NCBI RefSeq assembly: GCF_013402875.1
Contig: NZ_CP058579.1
Coordinates: 2,108,001 to 2,172,000 of the forward strand
Origin: Halorarum salinum
GTDB lineage: Archaea; Halobacteriota; Halobacteria; Halobacteriales; Haloferacaceae
Direction of reading: 5' to 3'
Length of the DNA stretch: 64,000 nucleotides
Below are positions 924 through 13,235 of the stretch, piece after piece. Each line of letters starts with the position of its first letter. The first letter of the stretch is position 1. The notes under the pieces were generated by a model. It searched no databases. It worked only from the letters and a program-made list of their open reading frames with translations, and was not told the DNA's origin. Made by a program: the position numbers and the translations under genes.

Positions 924-1310
924 GTGTCCTATACTACACAAAAACAGGTGACCGGATCGTTCGACGACGTCGTCGAGCGGACGATCGACGCGCTGGAGGA
1001 CGAGGGGTTCGGGGTACTCTGTGACATCGACGTACGGGCCACGTTCGCGGAGAAACTCGACGAGGAGTTCCGCAACTACCGCATCCTCGGGGCGTGCAAC
1101 CCGCAACTGGCCTACCAGGGGCTCGAGGCCGAGATCGAACTGGGCGCGCTGCTCCCGTGTAACGTCGTCGTCTACGAGGCCGACGACGGCGACGTCGTCG
1201 TGAGCGCGGTCGACCCGGAGCAACTCGTCGGCATCACGGACAACCCGGAACTCGACTCCATCTCCGAGGACGTCGCGGGTCGGTTCGAGCGGGTGCTCGA
1301 CGCGCTGTGA
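924..1310 (+). CDS. DUF302 family protein
   Basis: A 128-residue protein matching the DUF302 pattern: an N-terminal stretch (SFDDVVERTIDALEDEGFGV), a central segment with GACNPQLAYQGLEAE, and LLPCNVVVYE. DUF302 is a small alpha/beta domain of unknown function often found with redox or metal genes. I chose the GTG at 924, giving MSYTTQKQV; an in-frame TTG three codons upstream is less likely. The stop overlaps the start of the multicopper oxidase by GTGA, so the two are almost certainly translationally coupled. Two cysteines (in GVLCD and GACNP) and one in LLPCN could bind metal, but this is inference. Confidence 0.85.
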   Translation: MSYTTQKQVTGSFDDVVERTIDALEDEGFGVLCDIDVRATFAEKLDEEFRNYRILGACNPQLAYQGLEAEIELGALLPCNVVVYEADDGDVVVSAVDPEQLVGITDNPELDSISEDVAGRFERVLDAL

Positions 1311-2743
1311 GCGGCCGGTCGTCCCTCGATCGACGGCGGCTTCTTCGTGCGCTCGGCGGGGCCGGTGTGAGCGCGCTCGCTGGCTGTTCCTCGCTCGGCG
1401 GCTCGCCGTTCGACGGCTCCGCGTCGACGTCGACTCCCCGTCCGGCCCCCTCGGGCCCGGCCGACACGACCGCGACGCTGCGGGCGACAGCCGGGACGGT
1501 CGAGCCGGGCCCGGGGGAGTCCACAGAGAACTGGCTCTTCGACGGCGAGTTCCCCGGCCCCGAACTCCGGATGGCCGAGGGTGAGGTGTTCGAGCTCGAA
1601 CTGACGAACGACCTCCCGGAAGGGACGACGATACACTGGCACGGCGTCCCCGTGACGAACGGGATGGACGGCGTTCCCGACGTCACCCAGGCGCCGGTCG
1701 AACCCGGCGGCTCGTTCACGTACCGGTTCCGGGCGGAGCCCCCGGGCACGTACTTCTACCACAGCCACGCCGGCCTCCAGCTCGACCGCGGGCTGCTCGC
1801 TCCGCTCGTCATCGAGGAGTCCGACCCGCACGTGGCGTACGACCGCGAGTACACCGTCGTCGTCGACGACTACCTCGACCGTGCCCCGCGACCGCTCTCC
1901 GCCGCCGACTCGGACCGGGGCCCAGGGGGCGGTCCCGGCGGCACGGGCGGCGGACCGATGGCGACGAGACGACCGCCGTACGCCGGCCCCCTCGTCGACG
2001 GTCGCCTGCCGGACGACCCGCGAACGTTCGGGGTTCGGGACGGCGAGCGCGTCCGCTTCCGGTTCGTCAACGCGAGCAGCGCGACGGCGTTCCGCGTTCG
2101 GATCGCCGGACACCCGTTGACCGTCACGCACGCCGACGGACAGCCGGTCGAGCCGGTCACCGTCGACTCGTTCGGCTTCGGCTCGGGCGAACGGTACGAC
2201 GCCGTCGTCGAGGCGGGCAACCCCGGGACGTGGGAGCTACGTGCCGACGCCATCGACGGCGACGAACCGCCGGGGAGGGCGATCATGTCGTACGAGGGTA
2301 CCGGGGCGTCCGAGTCGCCGACCGCTCCGTCGTCGGACGACCGGCGGCTGTCGTACGACGACCTCCGGGCGCTCTCGCCGTTGGACGGCGTCGGCGGGAG
2401 TCCGGATCGAACGTTCGACCTGACGCTCTCGGCGGGCCGTCGCTCGAACCGGTGGCTGATCGACGGGGAGGCCTACCCCGACGCGGACCCCCTCGAGGTT
2501 CGGGAGGGAGAACACGTCCGGGTCAGGATGACGAACCGGAGCCCCGTCATCCACCCGATGCACCTCCACGGGCACTTCTTCCGGGTCGGGGACGCGGTCA
2601 AGGACACCGTGGTCGTCCCCGGCCACATGGGCCAGGTGACGTTCGACTTCGTCGCCGACAACCCCGGGAACTGGCTGTTCCACTGCCACAACCTGTACCA
2701 CCTCGACGCGGGGATGGCACGCGTCGTGCGGTACGTCCAATGA
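1307..2743 (+). CDS. Multicopper oxidase, Tat-exported lipoprotein
   Basis: A 478-residue multicopper oxidase. The N-terminus has a twin-arginine run (DRRRLLRAL) and a lipobox ending at Cys27 (LAGC), so it should be exported folded by Tat and anchored outside the membrane. Copper ligands are complete: HWH at 110-112, HSH at 152-154, HPMHLH at 416-421 and HCHNLYHLDAGM at 459-470, the last supplying type 1 and type 3 copper ligands. A Gly-rich loop sits near residues 200-222. Likely roles are oxidation of Cu(I), metals or phenols at the surface. The GTG start overlaps the DUF302 stop. A CopB ATPase, a copper-storage protein and a halocyanin nearby support a copper role. Confidence 0.92.
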   Translation: MSGRSSLDRRRLLRALGGAGVSALAGCSSLGGSPFDGSASTSTPRPAPSGPADTTATLRATAGTVEPGPGESTENWLFDGEFPGPELRMAEGEVFELELTNDLPEGTTIHWHGVPVTNGMDGVPDVTQAPVEPGGSFTYRFRAEPPGTYFYHSHAGLQLDRGLLAPLVIEESDPHVAYDREYTVVVDDYLDRAPRPLSAADSDRGPGGGPGGTGGGPMATRRPPYAGPLVDGRLPDDPRTFGVRDGERVRFRFVNASSATAFRVRIAGHPLTVTHADGQPVEPVTVDSFGFGSGERYDAVVEAGNPGTWELRADAIDGDEPPGRAIMSYEGTGASESPTAPSSDDRRLSYDDLRALSPLDGVGGSPDRTFDLTLSAGRRSNRWLIDGEAYPDADPLEVREGEHVRVRMTNRSPVIHPMHLHGHFFRVGDAVKDTVVVPGHMGQVTFDFVADNPGNWLFHCHNLYHLDAGMARVVRYVQ

Positions 2744-4081: not shown

Positions 4082-6319
4082 CTAATCCGCCGGCCGTACC
4101 TCCCCCGGCACCGACACGCCCGGGAGGCTCGGCAGGTCGAGGTCGACCCGGCGGAGGAACTGGGCGTTGATGGCGACGATCACCGTGCTGAGCGACATGA
4201 GCAGGGCACCGACCGCGGGCGAGAGGAGGATGCCGATGGGGGCGAGGACGCCGGCCGCGAGCGGGATGGCGAACACGTTGTAGCCCGCGGCCCAGACGAG
4301 GTTCTCCTGCATCTTGCGGTAACTCGCCTTGCTCAGTTTCACGAGGCGAACGACGTCCATCGGGTTGTTCTGGACGAGGATGATGTCCGCCGACTGGACC
4401 GCGACGTCCGTCCCCGACCCGATGGCGATGCCGACGTCCGCGCGCGTCAGCGCCGGCGCGTCGTTGACGCCGTCGCCGACCATCGCCACGAACTTGCCCT
4501 GGTTCTGCAGTTCCTGTACCTTCTCGTCCTTGTCCTCGGGCAGGACCTCCGCGAACACCGTATCGATGCCGAGCTCCTCGGCCACGGCGTCGGCCACGTC
4601 CTTCGAGTCGCCGGTCAGCATCGCCACCTCGATGCCGAGTTCGTGGAGCCCGTCGACGACCCGATAGCTCTCCTCGCGGATGACGTCCGCGAGCGCGAAC
4701 GCCGCGACCGGGTCCCCCGCGACGCTCGCGGCCCCGCCGCTCGCACCGCCCGAGGGCTCGCCGCGCTCGCCCTCGCGGACCAGGTAGACGACCGTCCGCG
4801 CGTTCTCCCCGGCCCGTTCCGCGAACGCCGTCAGTTCCGGCGGGACGTCGCTGTCGAGCTGCGAGAGGAGGTTCGGTCCGCCGACGTGGACCGTCCGTCC
4901 GTCGACGGTCGCGCGGACGCCGCGACCCTTGAGCGCCTCGAAGCCGGTCGCGCTTCGCGCCGCGACGCCCCGCTCGTCGGCCGCCTCGCGGATCGCCCGG
5001 GCGATCATGTGCTCGGAGTCGCCCTCGACGGCCGCGGCGAGCGCCAGCGCCTCGTCCTCGTCGACGCCGTCGACGGTCGCCACGTCGACGACGCCCTGTT
5101 CGCCCTCCGTGAGCGTCCCCGTCTTGTCGAAGACGATCGTGTCCAGTTCGCGGGCCTCCTCCATGGCGATCCGGTCCCGGATCAGCATCCCGTTCTGCGC
5201 GGCGAGCGACGTGTTGATCGCGACGACGAGCGGGATGGCGAGCCCGAGCGCGTGTGGGCAGGCGATCACCAGCACGGTCACGACCCGCTCTACGACCGTG
5301 GCGTCGAACGAGACGGCGACGGTCCACGCCACGGCGGTCACGGCAGCCGCGGCCACCGCGACGTAGAACAGCCACCCCGCCGCGCGGTCGGCGAGCATCT
5401 GGGTCCGGGACTCGCTCTTCTGGGCCTCCTCGACGAGACGCATGATGCCCGCGAGCGTCGTCTCCTCGCCCGTCGCGCTGATTCGGACGCGGAGGCTGCC
5501 GTCGCCGTTGATGGTGCCGCCGATCACCTCGTCGCCCGGGTCCTTCGAGACCGGTCTCGACTCCCCGGTGATCATCGACTCGTTCACGTCCGAGTCCCCC
5601 TCCTCGACGACGCCGTCGGCGGGGACGCTCGCACCCGGGCGGACGAGCACCAGGTCGTCCTCCGTGAGGTCGCTCACCGGCACCTCCTCTGTGTCGCCGC
5701 TTCCGGTGATGCGCTCGGCGGTGTCCGGGAGCAGTTTCGCCAGTTCGTCGAGCGCGCTCGAGGCCCGGCGGACGCTCCGCATCTCGATCCAGTGGCCGAG
5801 CAGCATGACGTCGATGAGCGTCACGAGCTCCCAGAAGAACGCCGACGTCGTCGGGAGGACCACGCTCGCCAGGCTGTAGACGAACGCGACGGTGATGGCC
5901 ATCGAGATGAGCGTCATCATCCCCGGCGCCCGGTCCCTGAGCTCCGGGACGGCCATCCGGAGGAACGGCACGCCCCCGTACCCGAAGACGACCACCGCGA
6001 AAACCGGGTTGATCCACTCGCTTCCGGGGAACACTGGGACCGAGAATCCGAGCCACTCCTGCAGCGTCTCGCTGTAGAGGAGGACCGGAATCGAGAGGAG
6101 CGTCGAGACGAAGAAGCGTCGTCGGAACATCTGCTCATGCCCTTCGTGCATACCCCCATGGTCTCCGTGGTCGTGGCTGCCATCTCCATGATCCATGTCG
6201 TGCTCGTCGTGCTCTGCAACCTCATGCTCCGCCTCGTCAGCGTCCTCGGCTTCCTCCTCAAGCAGCGACTGTTCTACTCGGGATTCTTCCTCGTTTGGTG
6301 AGTGATCGTGTTCGTCCAT
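4082..6319 (-). CDS. copB: CopB-type copper-translocating P-type ATPase
   Basis: A 745-residue P1B-ATPase. In place of an N-terminal HMA domain it has a His/Asp/Glu-rich tail (residues 3-62, including [15 protein letters not shown]). Key motifs are TGES at 251-254, the membrane metal site CPH at 354-356, DKTGT from 398, SEHMIA around 435 and GDGVND at 615-620. The CPH rather than CPC motif is typical of the CopB (P1B-3) group, which exports copper and sometimes silver across the plasma membrane. I chose the ATG that gives MDEHDHS; an upstream in-frame ATG at 6352 would add eleven unrelated residues. It lies downstream of the channel gene on the same strand. Confidence 0.93.
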
Positions 6320-6380: not shown

Positions 6381-6418
6381 AGCCCATTATGCTGATTCTA
6401 GCCCATTATGCTGATTCC
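6381..6418. repeat. Tandem 19-base direct repeat
   Basis: Two adjacent copies of a 19-base unit (6381-6399 and 6400-6418) differ only in the last base. The second copy contains the last codons and TAA stop of the channel gene; the first lies in the 86-base gap before copB. It looks like a recent slippage duplication, possibly affecting the copB upstream region. Confidence 0.85.
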
Positions 6419-7410
6419 CTCTGAGTTGGCCATTCTCGCAGGTCTGATTCTATGAGCCCCAGGAGTATTCGCCGGCGCTCGGTCATATCAGCCATCGAGG
6501 CGAGATACTCTTCGTCAGAAACGGTCGGGATTCCCACGTCGCGAAGGGTTTCGATCTCAGGTACGGGTGGAGAGCGATCAGCCGGTTCGATGTAGGCACT
6601 TCCGACTGTCTCAAGATAGCTCTCGACGCTAGCGCGACCTTCATTCATGAGGATCGCGTTCGGTCGGCTCCGTTCGTCGACGGCGAACTGAAGCAGTGTG
6701 AGCGCGTTGTCGAGGACTGCAATGCTTGTCGTCGGCGCTTGCGCTGATCGTCCGCTATAAAAGTAGTGGAGAATGGGGTACGCCTTGTGGTTTGATGTGA
6801 GCATATTGAGCTGTGTCGAAACGGTGTTGAGAGGGACTTCGAGCCCCTGAAACGCTTCACCGTCCCAGCTCGTCTGGAGAATCTCGGTGCCCTGCATGCC
6901 GAGTCCGCTCACGGTAGTCGCAAACGAGTGCTTCTGTGTGACCGCTCCGAGGACGGACAGGACGTACGTCACACTCAGGGTGATGAAGAGCATCCCGCTC
7001 GCGGACGCAAGCGTAGTTACGATCTGCCAGATGCTCCCCTGGGGAATGAAATCGCCGTTCCCCAGGGTGAAAATCGTGTAGCCGGTGTAGTAGACGAGGT
7101 CGGACCACGAGATACTCCGTCCGTTGACCGTGTCGAGCAGAGTGTTCTCGGCGCTCGCGAAGAGGAGCGTCCATCCGGCCCAGAGGAGTGCGATCCAGCT
7201 TGCGAGGCTCAGGACCAGGATTACTGGTCCTGAGAGCGTAAGGAGCCGGGAATTACGACCGCCGACCCTCCGCAGGACCGACCAGGTCCCCGCCATCAGC
7301 CACGACGTAAGCGGTCCGGCACCACCCTCCACCCAGAGCGTCGTCCAGAGGAGGTCTACGATGACGATGACGAGACAGAGGATTCCAAGGACGAGGGAGA
7401 AGACGTTCAT
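6406..7410 (-). CDS. Potassium-channel family membrane protein
   Basis: A 334-residue protein with N-terminal hydrophobic segments (about residues 1-25 and 60-90), a pore loop, and a second membrane helix (about 135-160), followed by a ~170-residue soluble C-terminal domain. The loop TIFTLGNGDF resembles the K+ channel filter (TVGYGD) with Asn replacing Tyr, so it matches the ion-channel-2 fold but selectivity is uncertain. The C-terminal domain is not an obvious RCK domain; it is all-helical and contains few recognisable motifs. It sits directly upstream of copB on the same strand. The base composition from about 6.4 to 11.6 kb is visibly less GC-rich than the flanks. Confidence 0.8.
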   Translation of the reverse strand: MNVFSLVLGILCLVIVIVDLLWTTLWVEGGAGPLTSWLMAGTWSVLRRVGGRNSRLLTLSGPVILVLSLASWIALLWAGWTLLFASAENTLLDTVNGRSISWSDLVYYTGYTIFTLGNGDFIPQGSIWQIVTTLASASGMLFITLSVTYVLSVLGAVTQKHSFATTVSGLGMQGTEILQTSWDGEAFQGLEVPLNTVSTQLNMLTSNHKAYPILHYFYSGRSAQAPTTSIAVLDNALTLLQFAVDERSRPNAILMNEGRASVESYLETVGSAYIEPADRSPPVPEIETLRDVGIPTVSDEEYLASMADMTERRRILLGLIESDLREWPTQRESA

Positions 7411-7640: not shown

Positions 7641-7946
7641 GTGACCACGGAGACACTCGAGGGCTACGTCATCGACGTCGGATGCATCCGGAAGAACGCC
7701 CGTGACGACCTTCTCGAGAAGGCCCGAACGCACACTCGGGAGTGTGCACTGATGGGCCACTGCGTCGAGAGCGGGTACGGCATCGTGACCGAGGACGATC
7801 GATTGACCGTCCTCGACCCTGAAGCGACCCCGAAGATCGTCGCCGTCGTCGGGGAGAGCGACACGGAGCAGGGGATTCGCCTCCGCGTCCAGCGGGACGA
7901 GCGAGACGGCGCGATGGAGACGACTGATATCGAGGAGAGTGGATAG
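7641..7946 (+). CDS. Small cysteine-containing protein with a GYVIDVGC motif
   Basis: A 101-residue protein from a GTG start at 7641. The fold signature is an N-terminal G-Y-V-I-D-V-G-C, then HTRECALMGHCVESGYGIV, then a short DRLTVLD strand. This spacing (G..x-D-x-x-C ... CA...C...G) matches a small domain widespread in bacterial and archaeal envelope or metal-associated proteins, of unknown function; the Cys/His residues could bind a metal. No signal peptide is seen. It is transcribed away from the channel gene and towards the operon at 8.0-11.5 kb. Naming a function would be guesswork; the copper context is only suggestive. Confidence 0.7.
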   Translation: MTTETLEGYVIDVGCIRKNARDDLLEKARTHTRECALMGHCVESGYGIVTEDDRLTVLDPEATPKIVAVVGESDTEQGIRLRVQRDERDGAMETTDIEESG

Positions 7947-8026: not shown

Positions 8027-8530
8027 TCAATCGGTGCTCGACTCCATTGTTTCTGATCGGCGAGGATGCTCGTGATGCGTCACGGTTCCCTCAACAGCCG
8101 TTGCCCCGTGAGAACGAAGCAGCGCCTCCACGTCTTCGACTCGGTTATCCGGGACAGTCACTGCAGTCTGCGGTCGGTCCAACGCCGGTGGTCGTCGGTA
8201 TGTCCCAATCACGCCGCCGAGGAACCCTCCGCACGCCGCACCGAGGCCGAACCCGAGGAAGATCAGCATGTACCGTCCCGCGGTCATGATCGGACTCACG
8301 CGCGGTATCCAGAACACGTTCTGGTCCATGGCAAACAGGAGGACGGCGCCGAGTACTCCTCCCAGTAGTCCGCCCCAGAGGAGCCCCCGGGTCTCGGGCA
8401 TCGTCGCAGTGGGATCGAAGAACGGGTTATCGGTGTCCGGCTCTGTGGGCTCTAGGCCTGCATCACGAAGTACCTGCTTTGCCCCAGCTGCCGCATCTGT
8501 TTCATCGAATGTCGCGACGAGACGTCTCAC
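8027..8530 (-). CDS. Gly-rich two-helix membrane protein
   Basis: A 167-residue protein starting at GTG 8530. An N-terminal ~45-residue soluble segment (VATFDETDAAAGAKQVLRDAG) and a C-terminal one (VTVPDNRVEDVEALLRSHGA) flank two Gly-zipper membrane helices (LLWGGLLGGVLGAVLLF and LGFGLGAACGGFLGGVIG). The soluble halves look like the split ferredoxin-like domain seen in stress-related membrane proteins, but I do not recognise the family precisely. Its start overlaps the previous gene's stop by GTGA, so it is the third gene of the operon that begins at 11534. Confidence 0.75.
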   Translation of the reverse strand: MRRLVATFDETDAAAGAKQVLRDAGLEPTEPDTDNPFFDPTATMPETRGLLWGGLLGGVLGAVLLFAMDQNVFWIPRVSPIMTAGRYMLIFLGFGLGAACGGFLGGVIGTYRRPPALDRPQTAVTVPDNRVEDVEALLRSHGATAVEGTVTHHEHPRRSETMESSTD

Positions 8531-9750
8531 TGTCCACCTCCAGGTTCCTGTAGCATCGTGTGGAGCCGTGCTTGAACTCGCTGGCTAATCTGGTTCGTGT
8601 CACCGACGATCCAGCCGTGGTTGTACTTGCGATCGTACGGTGCAGCCTCGTGTGGCCGCGTGAGGTTCGTCAGATAGTTCCCCACCGCTGCCGGGATGGT
8701 ATCCGACTCCACGAGGAGCATTGGACCGTGTTTCCCGCGATGGCTTTCGACGCAGGCGGGGAGTGCAGTCTGCCAGTTCTCGGGATTGGCGAAGATGAAG
8801 TTGTGCCCGCTCTCGGCGATGCCCCAGCCGATGTTCCGTGGCCACTCGCCGAACACCCACCCCTGGTTCCGGCCGAGGTCCTTGTAGCCGGCGAACCCGA
8901 CGCTCAGCTTGTACGGATCAGATCCCTGCGGAATCCGCTGGACGTGGCCGAACTGTGCGAGCTCACGGGCGACCTGCGCACTGATTCTGCTCTCGTCGCC
9001 GAGGAGGTACATGTACGCCTCGTCGAACCGGGCGTCGAGCTGGCGGCGTGTCACCTCCGGAATACGATCACCGTCGACGTAGAGGAAGCCGTCACCGCCA
9101 TGAGCGTTCCAAGATTGGGCCGGGATAGCCGTCCGGAGGTCGTCGAGATCGGCGATGAACGTGGTGTCCCGATGGTTCGCGTGGATCGTACTGAGGTACT
9201 GGTCGACGTTGGCCGCTACCTCTGCCGGGCTGTCACCCGGAATGCGACTCGTCTTCAGACCCATCCCCTCGATGGTTTGCCGGACGCCACTGCTGATGTA
9301 TCGCTCACCGCCGACGAGGTACACCTGCACGTTCCCGTCGACGTGAACTCCCTCCGGATGAAGCCGCTCGATCTCCTCACGAGTTGCTTCCGGCAGGGAG
9401 TCCTGCTCCGTTAACAGGACAGCGCCATCGATCGGATGATGGATGACGGCGACTCCCGGGAGCGCTGCACCCAGATCGCTATCGTTGATGAGTATCGCCG
9501 CACCCGGCCGGGTGTGCTCGTTGATCGCCGTGTAAACGTTCTGCGTGAACGCCGTCGCGGTCTCGTACTCGTTGCTCCCGGCGAGGCGGGTCGTCATGGT
9601 CGTGGCGGTCCACTCATCGAAGTCAGCACTTTCCGGCCCCGATTGGCTCCCCTGCTGGGACGTCCGGGCCAAGGTAACTCCGGCAAGGCCAGTTCCGACT
9701 GGCAGTGCGGCGAGATCGCGCAGGAACTTCCGGCGACTGCGATCACTCAT
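8527..9750 (-). CDS. Tat-exported protein with three cell-wall-binding (CWB2) type repeats
   Basis: A 407-residue protein. It starts at ATG 9750 with a Tat leader (SDRSRRKFLRDL followed by a hydrophobic stretch). Three units of about 90 residues follow the cell-wall-binding repeat 2 pattern: a strand ending in a small-residue ALP, a 'LL..DSLP' step, and a VYLVGGE...IS..V closing strand. Unit 1 contains AILINDSDLGAALPG and VYLVGGERYISS; unit 2 TFIADLDDLRTAIP and YLLGDESRIS; unit 3 NFIFANPENWQTALP and GWIVGDTNQIS. In bacteria this fold binds anionic wall polymers; haloarchaea lack such walls, so the ligand is unknown. The start overlaps the upstream stop by ATGA, and the downstream gene overlaps by GTGA. 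Confidence 0.82.
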   Translation of the reverse strand: MSDRSRRKFLRDLAALPVGTGLAGVTLARTSQQGSQSGPESADFDEWTATTMTTRLAGSNEYETATAFTQNVYTAINEHTRPGAAILINDSDLGAALPGVAVIHHPIDGAVLLTEQDSLPEATREEIERLHPEGVHVDGNVQVYLVGGERYISSGVRQTIEGMGLKTSRIPGDSPAEVAANVDQYLSTIHANHRDTTFIADLDDLRTAIPAQSWNAHGGDGFLYVDGDRIPEVTRRQLDARFDEAYMYLLGDESRISAQVARELAQFGHVQRIPQGSDPYKLSVGFAGYKDLGRNQGWVFGEWPRNIGWGIAESGHNFIFANPENWQTALPACVESHRGKHGPMLLVESDTIPAAVGNYLTNLTRPHEAAPYDRKYNHGWIVGDTNQISQRVQARLHTMLQEPGGGQ

Positions 9751-11534
9751 AGCGCACCACCCGGTTTGAGATTCCTCCGGACGAGCAGGCCGTTCACCGG
9801 CCAAGCGATGAGGAACCCGACGAGCGTGGCAAACGCCATCACGCCGAACCAGAGGATGTTATCGTCTCCTGGCATCATCTCCAGATTGAGCATCATCAAC
9901 ACCCACATCCCCCCCATCATCCCGATGGAGACACTGGTCATACTCACGGCAACGATTTTTGCGCCTTGTTCCGCTGCGGACCTGGTGTCGAGGCCCTGGG
10001 AGTCCATCAGCATGGGGATGTGGAAGACGAGCCACGAGACGAGGAACGCGACGACGTAGACGATGACGATGAGGAGCGTCATCGCGTTCCCGAGCCAGAA
10101 GAGCGGGCCATCGATGACGAGCATCGGGATTCCAAAGTAGTTGAGGAGGAACGCAGTGGCGATCATCGTGCTGGCGGCGAAGCCGACGCCCATAGCGGTC
10201 GCTGTAGCTGCTCGGAGCCAGTATGGACGCAGGACGCGTGGACCCTGATCGGTGGTAACGATCTGTCTCCCACGGTAGGACAGCCAGTAGAGCCCGAGTC
10301 CGAACGGACCAAGTACGAGCGTGAACAGTGGCCAGACCATCTTCGTCCAATCGTTCATCTCGGGGAGTCGATGGCGTGAATGGGCGAACACGAATGACGA
10401 ACCGAGGAGGCTGAATGCCGCCCACACTGCAGCAAGGGACTCAAGTGGGCTTAGCCCGGCCCCCTGATGACGGTACTGCGTAATCTCGACCGCGTAGTCG
10501 AGACGGCCCTGTGACACCCAGGACACCTCCTCCGTCGATCCCATCGCGAACAGGTGGTTGAACGGTCCTTCTGCAGGCGTCGAGAACCACGCCGGCTGGG
10601 TCTGCCAGGCGTAGTTTTCAGTGACAGCCGGTAGGCTTCCGTCCTCGTTTACAAGCAAGATCGGCCCGGCCTTCCCATATTGAAGGTTTGCCGTCGAGAC
10701 GCCGTGTTCCCATTCGCCAGGGTTCACGAGCATGAAGTTGTAGTACCCCACTTTGTCGCGTTCGTGAATCCCCCAGCCGAAGTCGCGGGACTCGTCCCGA
10801 AACTCCGCGACCTCGACTGCGTGTGCCTGGGGAGTCTGCCCTGCAACGCGGGTCCACCGGACGTCAAGCTCCGAAAGCGCATCGTCGCTGACGAGGCGGG
10901 GCGGCGCGAGGACGTATGCATGGGATGCGTTCGTCTCCTCGATTGCCCGTTGAGTGGCGTCCGGAGTCCCGTTCTGGTTCGCGTACAGAATCGGGTCGCC
11001 GGAATACGCGCTCCATGCCGCCGCCGGAAGCGCCCATCGGGGCGCTTCTGAACTCACGATGATGACGTTGTTCGGACTGACGTCGTCGGACGAGTTCCCG
11101 CGAGTCGCGATCTCTGCTGCCGTCTCAGCAGAGTTCCCGCCGGAGACAGTCACCGTGGAGACGTTTGCGTCATCCGTTCCGTTACCGCCGTTTGGAGCAC
11201 TGGCGTTCCCGAACAGGAGTATCGCATCTTCACTCGCCCGCAAGCGGGATGCTGCAACTGCTGCCTGCCAATCGTTCTCCGGAACGCGAACGACCGTCGA
11301 GTACTCCAACCCGGACCCGGCCGGCCGAGCTGCCTGGGCTGTAAGTTCACTCTGGCGCTGTGGGTTATCGACGGGGAATCGGCTGACGTCTTTCGTCTGC
11401 ATCGTCGAGTACGACGCGTCAGGGGTCTGTCCGTAGTCGAACAGCGTCAACCCGACCACGTAGAGGGGTTGCGTTGCGACAAGAATCGCCACGACGGCGG
11501 CGACACCGATTGCTATCGTTTTCCAGAGGTCCAT
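9747..11534 (-). CDS. Membrane protein: CWB2-like ectodomain fused to DUF4396
   Basis: A 595-residue protein. One N-terminal membrane helix (about 5-30) is followed by a ~340-residue outer domain with two or three degenerate units of the same fold as the next gene (NNVIIVSSEAPRWALPAAAW; NFMLVNPGEWEHGV with GPILLVNEDGSLPAV). The last ~220 residues hold about six membrane helices resembling DUF4396, including WPLFTLVLGPFGLGLYW. One helix is strikingly Met-rich (SIGMMGGMWVLMMLNLEMMP), and another stretch reads HIPMLMD. Met-rich helices often handle Cu(I), so a copper role is inferred, not shown. It is the first gene of the overlapping three-gene operon and is related to its partner by the shared outer fold. 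Confidence 0.8.
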   Translation of the reverse strand: MDLWKTIAIGVAAVVAILVATQPLYVVGLTLFDYGQTPDASYSTMQTKDVSRFPVDNPQRQSELTAQAARPAGSGLEYSTVVRVPENDWQAAVAASRLRASEDAILLFGNASAPNGGNGTDDANVSTVTVSGGNSAETAAEIATRGNSSDDVSPNNVIIVSSEAPRWALPAAAWSAYSGDPILYANQNGTPDATQRAIEETNASHAYVLAPPRLVSDDALSELDVRWTRVAGQTPQAHAVEVAEFRDESRDFGWGIHERDKVGYYNFMLVNPGEWEHGVSTANLQYGKAGPILLVNEDGSLPAVTENYAWQTQPAWFSTPAEGPFNHLFAMGSTEEVSWVSQGRLDYAVEITQYRHQGAGLSPLESLAAVWAAFSLLGSSFVFAHSRHRLPEMNDWTKMVWPLFTLVLGPFGLGLYWLSYRGRQIVTTDQGPRVLRPYWLRAATATAMGVGFAASTMIATAFLLNYFGIPMLVIDGPLFWLGNAMTLLIVIVYVVAFLVSWLVFHIPMLMDSQGLDTRSAAEQGAKIVAVSMTSVSIGMMGGMWVLMMLNLEMMPGDDNILWFGVMAFATLVGFLIAWPVNGLLVRRNLKPGGAL

Positions 11535-11666: not shown

Positions 11667-12020
11667 TTACGCCGACATCATGTCCCGACAGCTCTCCGCG
11701 CACTCGCGGAGGACCTCGGCACACACCTGGCAGTGCTCGGCGTCGTGGCGCTCGCACTCCTCGGCGCACTCCTCGCAGGCGCCGGCGCAGACCTCGGCAA
11801 GCTGGGCGCTGTAGTTCGAATCGCGCGCCATGAAGCGTGCGTGGAGCGTCGTGAGGTCGGCGACGTCCCGACAGAGCCTGAGACACTCCGCCATCTCCTC
11901 GCCCTCGCCGGCGCACTCGTCGGCGCACCACTCGCACGCCTGCGCGGCCTCGAAGCAGTTGTCGATGCACTGTGCCATCCGTTCGTTCTCGCCCACGTGG
12001 TCGATCTCTGTCAGTGCCAT
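11667..12020 (-). CDS. csp: Four-helix-bundle copper-storage protein (Csp/DUF326)
   Basis: A 117-residue protein with 15 cysteines in helical spacing (for example CIDNCFEAAQACEWCADEC near residues 18-36 and CAGACEECAEEC near 78-89). This matches the Csp/DUF326 family, four-helix bundles that line the core with Cys thiolates and store many Cu(I) ions. No signal peptide is visible, so it should be a cytosolic Csp3-type store, buffering copper before export by an ATPase such as the CopB encoded 5.3 kb away. Strong acidity suits the cytoplasm of a halophile. It lies upstream of the CWB2/DUF4396 operon on the same strand with a 132-base gap. Confidence 0.9.
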   Translation of the reverse strand: MALTEIDHVGENERMAQCIDNCFEAAQACEWCADECAGEGEEMAECLRLCRDVADLTTLHARFMARDSNYSAQLAEVCAGACEECAEECERHDAEHCQVCAEVLRECAESCRDMMSA

Positions 12021-12351
12021 TCCGGTTCGTCCGTTCGCCGCGGAGCCGTTTTGTTATCATCCTCCCAAGGACGGTCGAGTAACTAGTGAGGTGCCGGGTC
12101 CGGGCGGTAACTCGGCCGTTCTCCGCGGCCGGTCGGGACGGACTCCCGGGTCTGCCGTCCCGTCGCCGCCGGCCGCGCTCACGGTAGAGCGCCGTCGGGC
12201 GCCGTCGAACGAACCCGGCGTCCTGCCTCCGCGTGCTCGTACGGTCTCCCTGTTCGGCGGTAGGTCACCCCCTACCCGGTCGGCCCCTGTACGGTCCCGC
12301 CCGCAACGGCCGGCCAGTACATTAACGCTCGCACGTCACGTACGCTAGCCC
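12021..12351. other. Intergenic region between divergent genes
   Basis: A 331-base gap between the copper-storage gene and the membrane/regulator pair. An AT-rich patch at about 12050-12060 could serve as the TATA element of the leftward gene, and a weaker one near 12320-12325 for the rightward pair. I see no further coding frame, repeat or RNA gene. Confidence 0.6.
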
Positions 12352-12663
12352 GTGACTGACACGCTCCTCCACGCGCTCAGCGTTCCGTTCGCGCTCGTCG
12401 CCGGAACCGGTGCGGGAGTCCTCGCCGTGCTCTCGTGGCGCCTGCTGCGGGGATCGCCGCTGGGGACGGTGATGGGCGTGGCGTCCGCGGCGATGGCGGT
12501 GATCACCGCCCACCACGCCGTCCTGCTCGTGATGGGGCCGGACACGCTCGTCACTGAGTTGTTCGGGAGCGGAACGTACACAGCCGTCGCCGTCCTCGTG
12601 GCCGTGGCGATCAGGGGGCACCGACGACGGGAGCGGGCCGACGCCGCGACCGATCCGCCATGA
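12352..12663 (+). CDS. Small three-helix membrane protein
   Basis: A 103-residue protein from a GTG start with three hydrophobic segments (about 8-32, 38-62, 75-92) and a basic then acidic tail. I do not recognise the family. The stop overlaps the start of the next gene by ATGA, indicating that the two are made together. Two adjacent His residues (TAHHAVLL) in the second segment could be functional. In this context it may be a sensor or accessory membrane partner of the downstream tethered regulator, which is inference. Confidence 0.7.
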   Translation: MTDTLLHALSVPFALVAGTGAGVLAVLSWRLLRGSPLGTVMGVASAAMAVITAHHAVLLVMGPDTLVTELFGSGTYTAVAVLVAVAIRGHRRRERADAATDPP

Positions 12664-13235
12664 CGGCGCTTTCCCCGTTTCACGCGTACGACCTCCTCGT
12701 GAGCCTCGTGGTCGGGATCGAACTCCTCTACTTCCTCCGCCTGGCGTCGCCCGCCGTGGAGCACCGACGGCGCCTGCTCGCGACCGTCGTAGGACTGGTC
12801 GCCTTCGTCGTCGGCGGACCGGTCGCGGAGACGGTCCTGCCGGACGCGGTCCACTGGGTCCACGGCGGGGCCGCGCTCCTCGTCGTCCTCGGCCTGTACA
12901 GCCCGGTCCGCGACGACCTTCGGGCGGTCGAGCGGGCGGGGAGACCGTCGAACGCGCCGGATCGAATCCGTGACGCCGCCGACTGGACGACGCCGCTGGA
13001 CGGCGAGATACTCGCGCTGTTCGACTCCTCGGAGCTCATCCTCACCCCGGCGATCGTCGCGGTGAACATCGGCTACAGCCGGGAGGAGGTCAACCGTCGG
13101 CTGCGGACCCTGGAGTCCCACGGCCTCCTCGAGCGCGTGGAGCGCGGGAAGTACCGGCTGACCGACCGGGGCGAACGGTGCCTCCGGGGGGACCGCGAGG
13201 CGACCCAGTCGACGGGGCCGGCCGGCGGGAACTGA
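12660..13235 (+). CDS. Membrane-tethered winged-helix regulator
   Basis: A 191-residue protein with three N-terminal membrane segments (about 9-30, 40-62, 66-84) and a C-terminal winged helix (about 118-180: DGEILALFDSSELILTP, VNRRLRTLESHGLLERV, KYRLTDRG). The DNA-binding part resembles the phage PhiH1 repressor-like winged helices common in haloarchaea. A membrane-bound one-component regulator is the simplest reading: an envelope signal modulates DNA binding. It sits between the copper-storage gene and a halocyanin gene, so control of those is a reasonable hypothesis. The start overlaps the upstream stop by ATGA. Confidence 0.78.
   Translation: MTALSPFHAYDLLVSLVVGIELLYFLRLASPAVEHRRRLLATVVGLVAFVVGGPVAETVLPDAVHWVHGGAALLVVLGLYSPVRDDLRAVERAGRPSNAPDRIRDAADWTTPLDGEILALFDSSELILTPAIVAVNIGYSREEVNRRLRTLESHGLLERVERGKYRLTDRGERCLRGDREATQSTGPAGGN

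Follow-up and report, generated by a model that had tools for sequence, protein, structure and literature searches.

A conserved three-gene unit of CWB2-type and DUF4396 proteins in haloarchaeal copper islands: a candidate copper-responsive membrane complex

In a 64,000-nucleotide stretch of the Halorarum salinum genome (NZ_CP058579.1, positions 2,108,001 to 2,172,000; hereafter the window), three overlapping genes, here P1, P2 and P3, join proteins with CWB2-type outer domains to a methionine-rich DUF4396 membrane domain in the midst of copper genes. We suggest, tentatively and at somewhat less than an even chance, that their products form a copper-responsive complex that binds or transfers Cu(I) or Ag(I), as an analogue of CopC–CopD made from unrelated folds. 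The suggestion starts from gene order, gene overlaps, homology between the outer domains, linkage to copper genes, a shared promoter-like element and the conservation of methionines; from these we infer metal binding, transport and its direction, and the formation of a complex.

Architecture and conservation of the three-gene unit

All three genes lie on the minus strand. P1 (9747–11534, 595 aa) has an N-terminal TM segment, a truncated CWB2-like outer domain and then the DUF4396 membrane domain; P2 (8527–9750, 407 aa) has a Tat-type leader and three CWB2 repeats; P3 (8027–8530, 167 aa, GTG start) is a Gly-rich protein with two TM segments and a short, weakly ActD-like N-terminal domain. The P1/P2 and P2/P3 junctions are ATGA and GTGA, 4 nt each; the three reading frames and both overlaps reported in a first-pass annotation of this DNA are all present in the sequence. 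P1 and P2 are the sole CWB2 and DUF4396 matches in the Halorarum salinum genome. We sampled 394 genomes from the order and obtained P1 matches in 48, most of those that are not full-length being stand-alone DUF4396 proteins. Full-length P1 occurs in ten genomes including that of the window, in 11 copies from four families, and the ten non-window copies, found in nine genomes, are 69–84% identical to the window P1. Every one of the 11 haloarchaeal copies keeps the order P1-P2-P3, and the two overlaps measure exactly −4 nt each throughout; conservation of the ordered trio, on which the first-pass annotation had staked its proposal, extends to ten further copies in nine other genomes. The named carriers are Halobaculum roseum and Halomicrobium urmianum, where the copies are plasmid-borne, and Haloarcula amylovorans, Halosimplex aquaticum and Halobonum tyrrellensis. 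Near one intact trio we also observed a further copy of P1, decayed and containing an in-frame TAG (L035, G250:C7:41210-41488).

Both P1 (34.9 bits, 2e-8) and P2 (47.4 bits, 3e-12) match PF04122 (CWB2) above the curated cut-off of 24.9 bits. Their outer domains had been described as related, and we find them homologous by BLASTP (26% identity, E=1e-19) and by hhalign (99%, E=2.2e-18), the homologous parts being P1 residues 127–347 (10494–11156, minus strand) and P2 residues 167–398; this likeness was judged by profile comparison, the P1 model having a pLDDT of 35. When segments are tested separately, the P2 repeats are mutually similar, and the two later segments of P1 match P2 repeats 2 and 3, the first CWB2 repeat of P1 being short and truncated. 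The predicted structure of P2 (pTM 0.76) consists of three beta-alpha repeats, and in a Foldseek search against the PDB the only matches at E<=1e-3 were the CWB2 modules of C. difficile Cwp6, Cwp8 and SlpA (2e-15 to 5e-11, TM about 0.6–0.65). P2 is predicted on the strength of this model to adopt the three-repeat CWB2 triad fold of those proteins; three tandem pseudo-threefold repeats are seen in P2 (as modelled) only. An ILL motif is a feature of CWB2 repeats (PMC4973711), and ILL-like segments can be read from both P1 (AILL, PILY, PILL) and P2 (AVLL, GFLY, PMLL), the match being only approximate in one repeat of each. An A-x-[FY]-[KR]-D motif followed by GWG is common to 12 aligned relatives (with M for F/Y in one row); in P1 it ends in FGWG within the homologous outer region, and in P2 the GWG lies in an insertion loop of repeat 3 (8800–8880, minus strand, residues 291–317), where model confidence is low. 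There is no Cys cluster in the outer domains of P1 or P2. The P2 leader, RRKFLRDLAA, is Tat-like, with a TIGR01409 score below the cut-off and with R6 and R7 invariant in 11 orthologs.

P1 has about seven predicted hydrophobic or TM segments, and its membrane part includes the DUF4396 domain (PF14342; residues 439–590, 9765–10220, minus strand), which scores 72.7 bits (5e-20) against a curated cut-off of 27. Within it lie a Met-rich helix and loop (residues 527–554, 9873–9956, minus strand), the helix having been noted at first pass together with the fusion to a CWB2-like domain. M532, M539, M540, M543, M547, M548, M553, M554 and M566, nine Met in 45 residues, are invariant in 11/11 orthologs, and they include a double MX3M, M539-x3-M543-x3-M547. 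Clustering of the P1 Met on one face of the helix was not significant (P=0.08). Stand-alone haloarchaeal DUF4396 proteins instead carry HCYSGCGAGE and have no Met-rich helix; the corresponding HCxxGC motif is absent from all P1 orthologs, and is a feature of a subgroup, not of the DUF4396 family as such.

P3 is harder to place. The Gly-zipper assigned to it at first pass stays below threshold in the window protein, although it recurs weakly in 8/11 orthologs, and ActD of alternative complex III, the other candidate, reached 16.3 bits against a cut-off of 25.7, with a weak match in 6/11 orthologs; since both matches are sub-threshold, we assign P3 to neither.

Copper genes, distant relatives and mobility

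The window contains, as the first-pass annotation had listed, a CopB-like P1B copper ATPase with a CPH motif and a His-rich N-terminus (4082–6319, minus strand), a multicopper oxidase, here with a DUF302 protein (924–2743, plus strand), a plastocyanin-type protein (then called halocyanin), and a Csp (DUF326), a copper-storage protein of the Csp-type four-helix-bundle class with no evident export signal, encoded upstream of P1 on the same strand (11667–12020, minus strand). Genes or gene fragments for CopB-type ATPases occur within 10 kb of 6/11 copies, against 0.12 expected (P about 3e-9, a Poisson estimate that ignores the shared ancestry of islands), and Csp lies on the same strand upstream of P1 in most copies, at 66–512 nt in nine listed loci. 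In the G247/Halobonum copy the tested copper genes are absent within 10 kb, except for a weak ATPase fragment. At two loci (L033 and L034) the Csp matches fall in two separate pieces just upstream of the trio, which suggests decay or a frameshift.

Two further neighbours deserve mention. An ion-channel family protein (6406–7410, minus strand), with TLGNGD as its filter in place of TVGYGD, is common in haloarchaeal copper islands and repeatedly found beside CopB; as the family is present in 135/394 genomes of the order, it is not a trio-specific neighbour. A small orphan protein (7641–7946, plus strand) with conserved Cys and His and no Pfam or NCBIfam match is likewise recurrent in haloarchaeal copper islands. 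Both have homologues in a copper island on a plasmid of Pontibacter actiniarum (49% identity for the orphan), and this plasmid (L053) and the haloarchaeal islands have at least six gene families in common.

The Pontibacter plasmid carries two diverged trios, with a P1-P2 overlap of −4 in both. One adjoins homologues of the window Csp, multicopper oxidase, ion channel and orphan protein, and the second has no adjacent copper genes. Pontibacter and haloarchaeal P1 profiles align over P1 residues 154–593 (E=3e-81); the Pontibacter P1 proteins keep several of the invariant Met, not the double MX3M, and the third proteins match P3 at 97% by profile, a value that may partly reflect Gly composition. 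The gene families common to this plasmid and the haloarchaeal islands suggest that an island was transferred across domains long ago. Outside the order, a genome inferred from gene content to be Methanosarcina-like has a P1-P2 pair with no P3 and no copper neighbours; its P1 keeps FGWG, not the full A-x-[FY]-[KR]-D motif, and retains fewer Met. In Bacilli, plasmids encode single CWB2-type lipoproteins related to P2, two of which (Alkalihalophilus, Paenibacillus sp. Cedars) have clear His/Met-rich tails, and which have as neighbours CopZ and an ATPase, a copper oxidase and Csp, CopC/CopD-like ORFs (named from sequence), or ArsR and an ATPase. The bacterial sampling covered plasmids and one scan of genome contigs; scans of viral contigs gave no relative.

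The copies with no copper genes beside them, namely the Methanosarcina-like pair and the second Pontibacter trio, speak against a copper function and fit better with what we regard as the main rival to it, that the CWB2-type domains bind a surface glycan or glycoprotein and anchor a membrane complex for envelope protection or repair under copper stress, with no copper binding of its own. The triads of C. difficile do bind an anionic polymer, PSII (PMC4973711), and P2, with its ILL-like segments, is predicted to be such a triad. Nonetheless, envelope maintenance would leave unexplained why Met replaces Cys in the DUF4396 domain, why the genes co-occur across domains with those for Csp, multicopper oxidase and the channel, and why the Bacilli relatives have His/Met-rich tails, and we consider it rather improbable.

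Linkage to copper genes could also arise from carriage on islands alone. Copies from different families intermingle in the P1 tree, which together with the plasmid copies and the low GC3 of the trio (~0.75, against ~0.9 in most neighbours in the window) points to horizontal spread; the same observations, along with the patchy distribution, fit the view that the three are mobile genes that ride on metal islands as passengers with an unrelated function. Against this, functional linkage is favoured by the fixed Csp-trio order, by the promoter-like element described below and by the presence of the same gene set on a plasmid from the distant Bacteroidota, and we hold mere carriage to be unlikely, more so than envelope maintenance.

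A promoter-like element and a divergent regulator

A promoter- or operator-like element, TCACTAGT-N24-ATAACAA, lies at 12051–12089 on the minus strand and is the only match in the genome. The two words, TCACTAGT and ATAACAA, were found by comparing intergenic regions, and across loci the bipartite form is TCACTAGT-N22–24-ATAACAA. Eleven genomes were searched with this pattern; six gave one match each, always just upstream of the Csp-trio unit, and a reversed-control pattern gave zero matches in the same eleven. As the pattern was derived from these loci, the test lies in its absence elsewhere and not in its presence there. Over the 394 genomes, 11 have a match, of which four are background-like (the reversed control also gave four), and three of these four have no query genes nearby. 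The seventh real site precedes Csp beside the same regulator in a genome with no trio (G078), and in G192, which has no Csp at this locus, the element is directly in front of P1.

Divergently from the operon, the window encodes a small membrane protein (12352–12663, plus strand), a conserved partner of the likely regulator that follows (12660–13235, plus strand). The latter has an N-terminal hydrophobic (TM) region, a C-terminal winged helix and an invariant VHWxHG, and this membrane-anchored protein is possibly a one-component metal sensor. That P1 and P2 themselves detect outside copper and signal across the membrane to this regulator is the least probable of the alternatives, and quite unlikely: at least six copies have the regulator and its partner on the divergent side of the operon, and most of these have the element, yet G078 has regulator, element and Csp with no P1 match, and no regulator match was found near the copies in G267b, G303, G247, G266 and Pontibacter. 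The first-pass annotation had proposed a copper-handling or envelope-sensing complex; the link to copper stands, as a statistical one that extends beyond one locus, while envelope-sensing has lost ground, since one genome has the regulator-Csp module with no trio and others have the trio with no regulator.

Proposed function and relation to known systems

We propose that P1-P2-P3, coupled in translation, would form a single unit that was joined to a Csp operon. Exported P2 and the outer half of P1 would place CWB2-type domains outside the membrane, where they probably act jointly, and P3 may pack with P1. At the end of the P1 Met helix is an MMPGDD loop; if segment 400–418 is re-entrant, the positive-inside rule would place this loop on the outside. 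The complex would probably bind Cu(I) or Ag(I) outside, or accept the metal from a partner, and might convey it, through the Met helix or along its length, in the direction of the cytosolic Csp and the CopB exporter. Outside capture with passage along a Met helix would make the trio a functional analogue of CopC-CopD/YcnJ from unrelated folds, and, given an adjoining Csp-type store that has no export signal, it may plausibly serve controlled uptake or hand-over, as has been suggested for PcoD/YcnJ (PMC7558416).

In the open-access literature searched we found no description of this trio or of a copper-handling complex of this kind, and nothing that links cell-wall-binding repeats to copper handling; within that literature DUF4396 is mentioned in one paper only, at the edge of a metal-resistance cluster of Acidihalobacter (PMC7760498). 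The trio could represent an undescribed copper membrane system of haloarchaea and Bacteroidota, in which CWB2 triads have been repurposed as extracytoplasmic copper receptors that feed a Met-lined DUF4396 permease for Cu(I)/Ag(I), a fuller version of our proposal that we regard as doubtful. Such a system would give copper resistance a conserved cross-domain component, and would offer a testable role for DUF4396, a domain of unknown function, and for CWB2-type domains in organisms with no peptidoglycan wall. The promoter-like element, the regulator and the Met positions make the hypothesis directly testable.

Haloarchaea lack a peptidoglycan wall, unlike the C. difficile hosts of CWB2 modules. 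P2 resembles the modules of C. difficile SlpA SLPH, Cwp6 and Cwp8 in its three repeats and ILL-like segments; the GWG loop motif is an addition common to the copper-linked relatives, and P1 differs further in that its first repeat is cut short and its outer domain is fused to a membrane domain. P1 shares its Pfam family with the stand-alone DUF4396 proteins, scoring well above the cut-off, but it lacks the HCxxGC of the haloarchaeal ones and differs by its Met-rich helix and by the outer domain at its N-terminus. In Ctr1, MX3M methionine triads form a Cu+ filter (PMC6437178); Ctr1 and P1 both have MX3M in a TM helix, yet no sequence relation between them was detected, P1 has no Ctr Pfam match, and P1 has about seven TM segments against three in Ctr1. 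The closest comparison in terms of working is with CopC-CopD and YcnJ. The families are unrelated, with no match to CopC or CopD Pfam families in P1 or P2 at E<=1, whereas the plan is alike: an extracytoplasmic domain and a multi-TM protein encoded in copper operons, with one version in which the two are fused.
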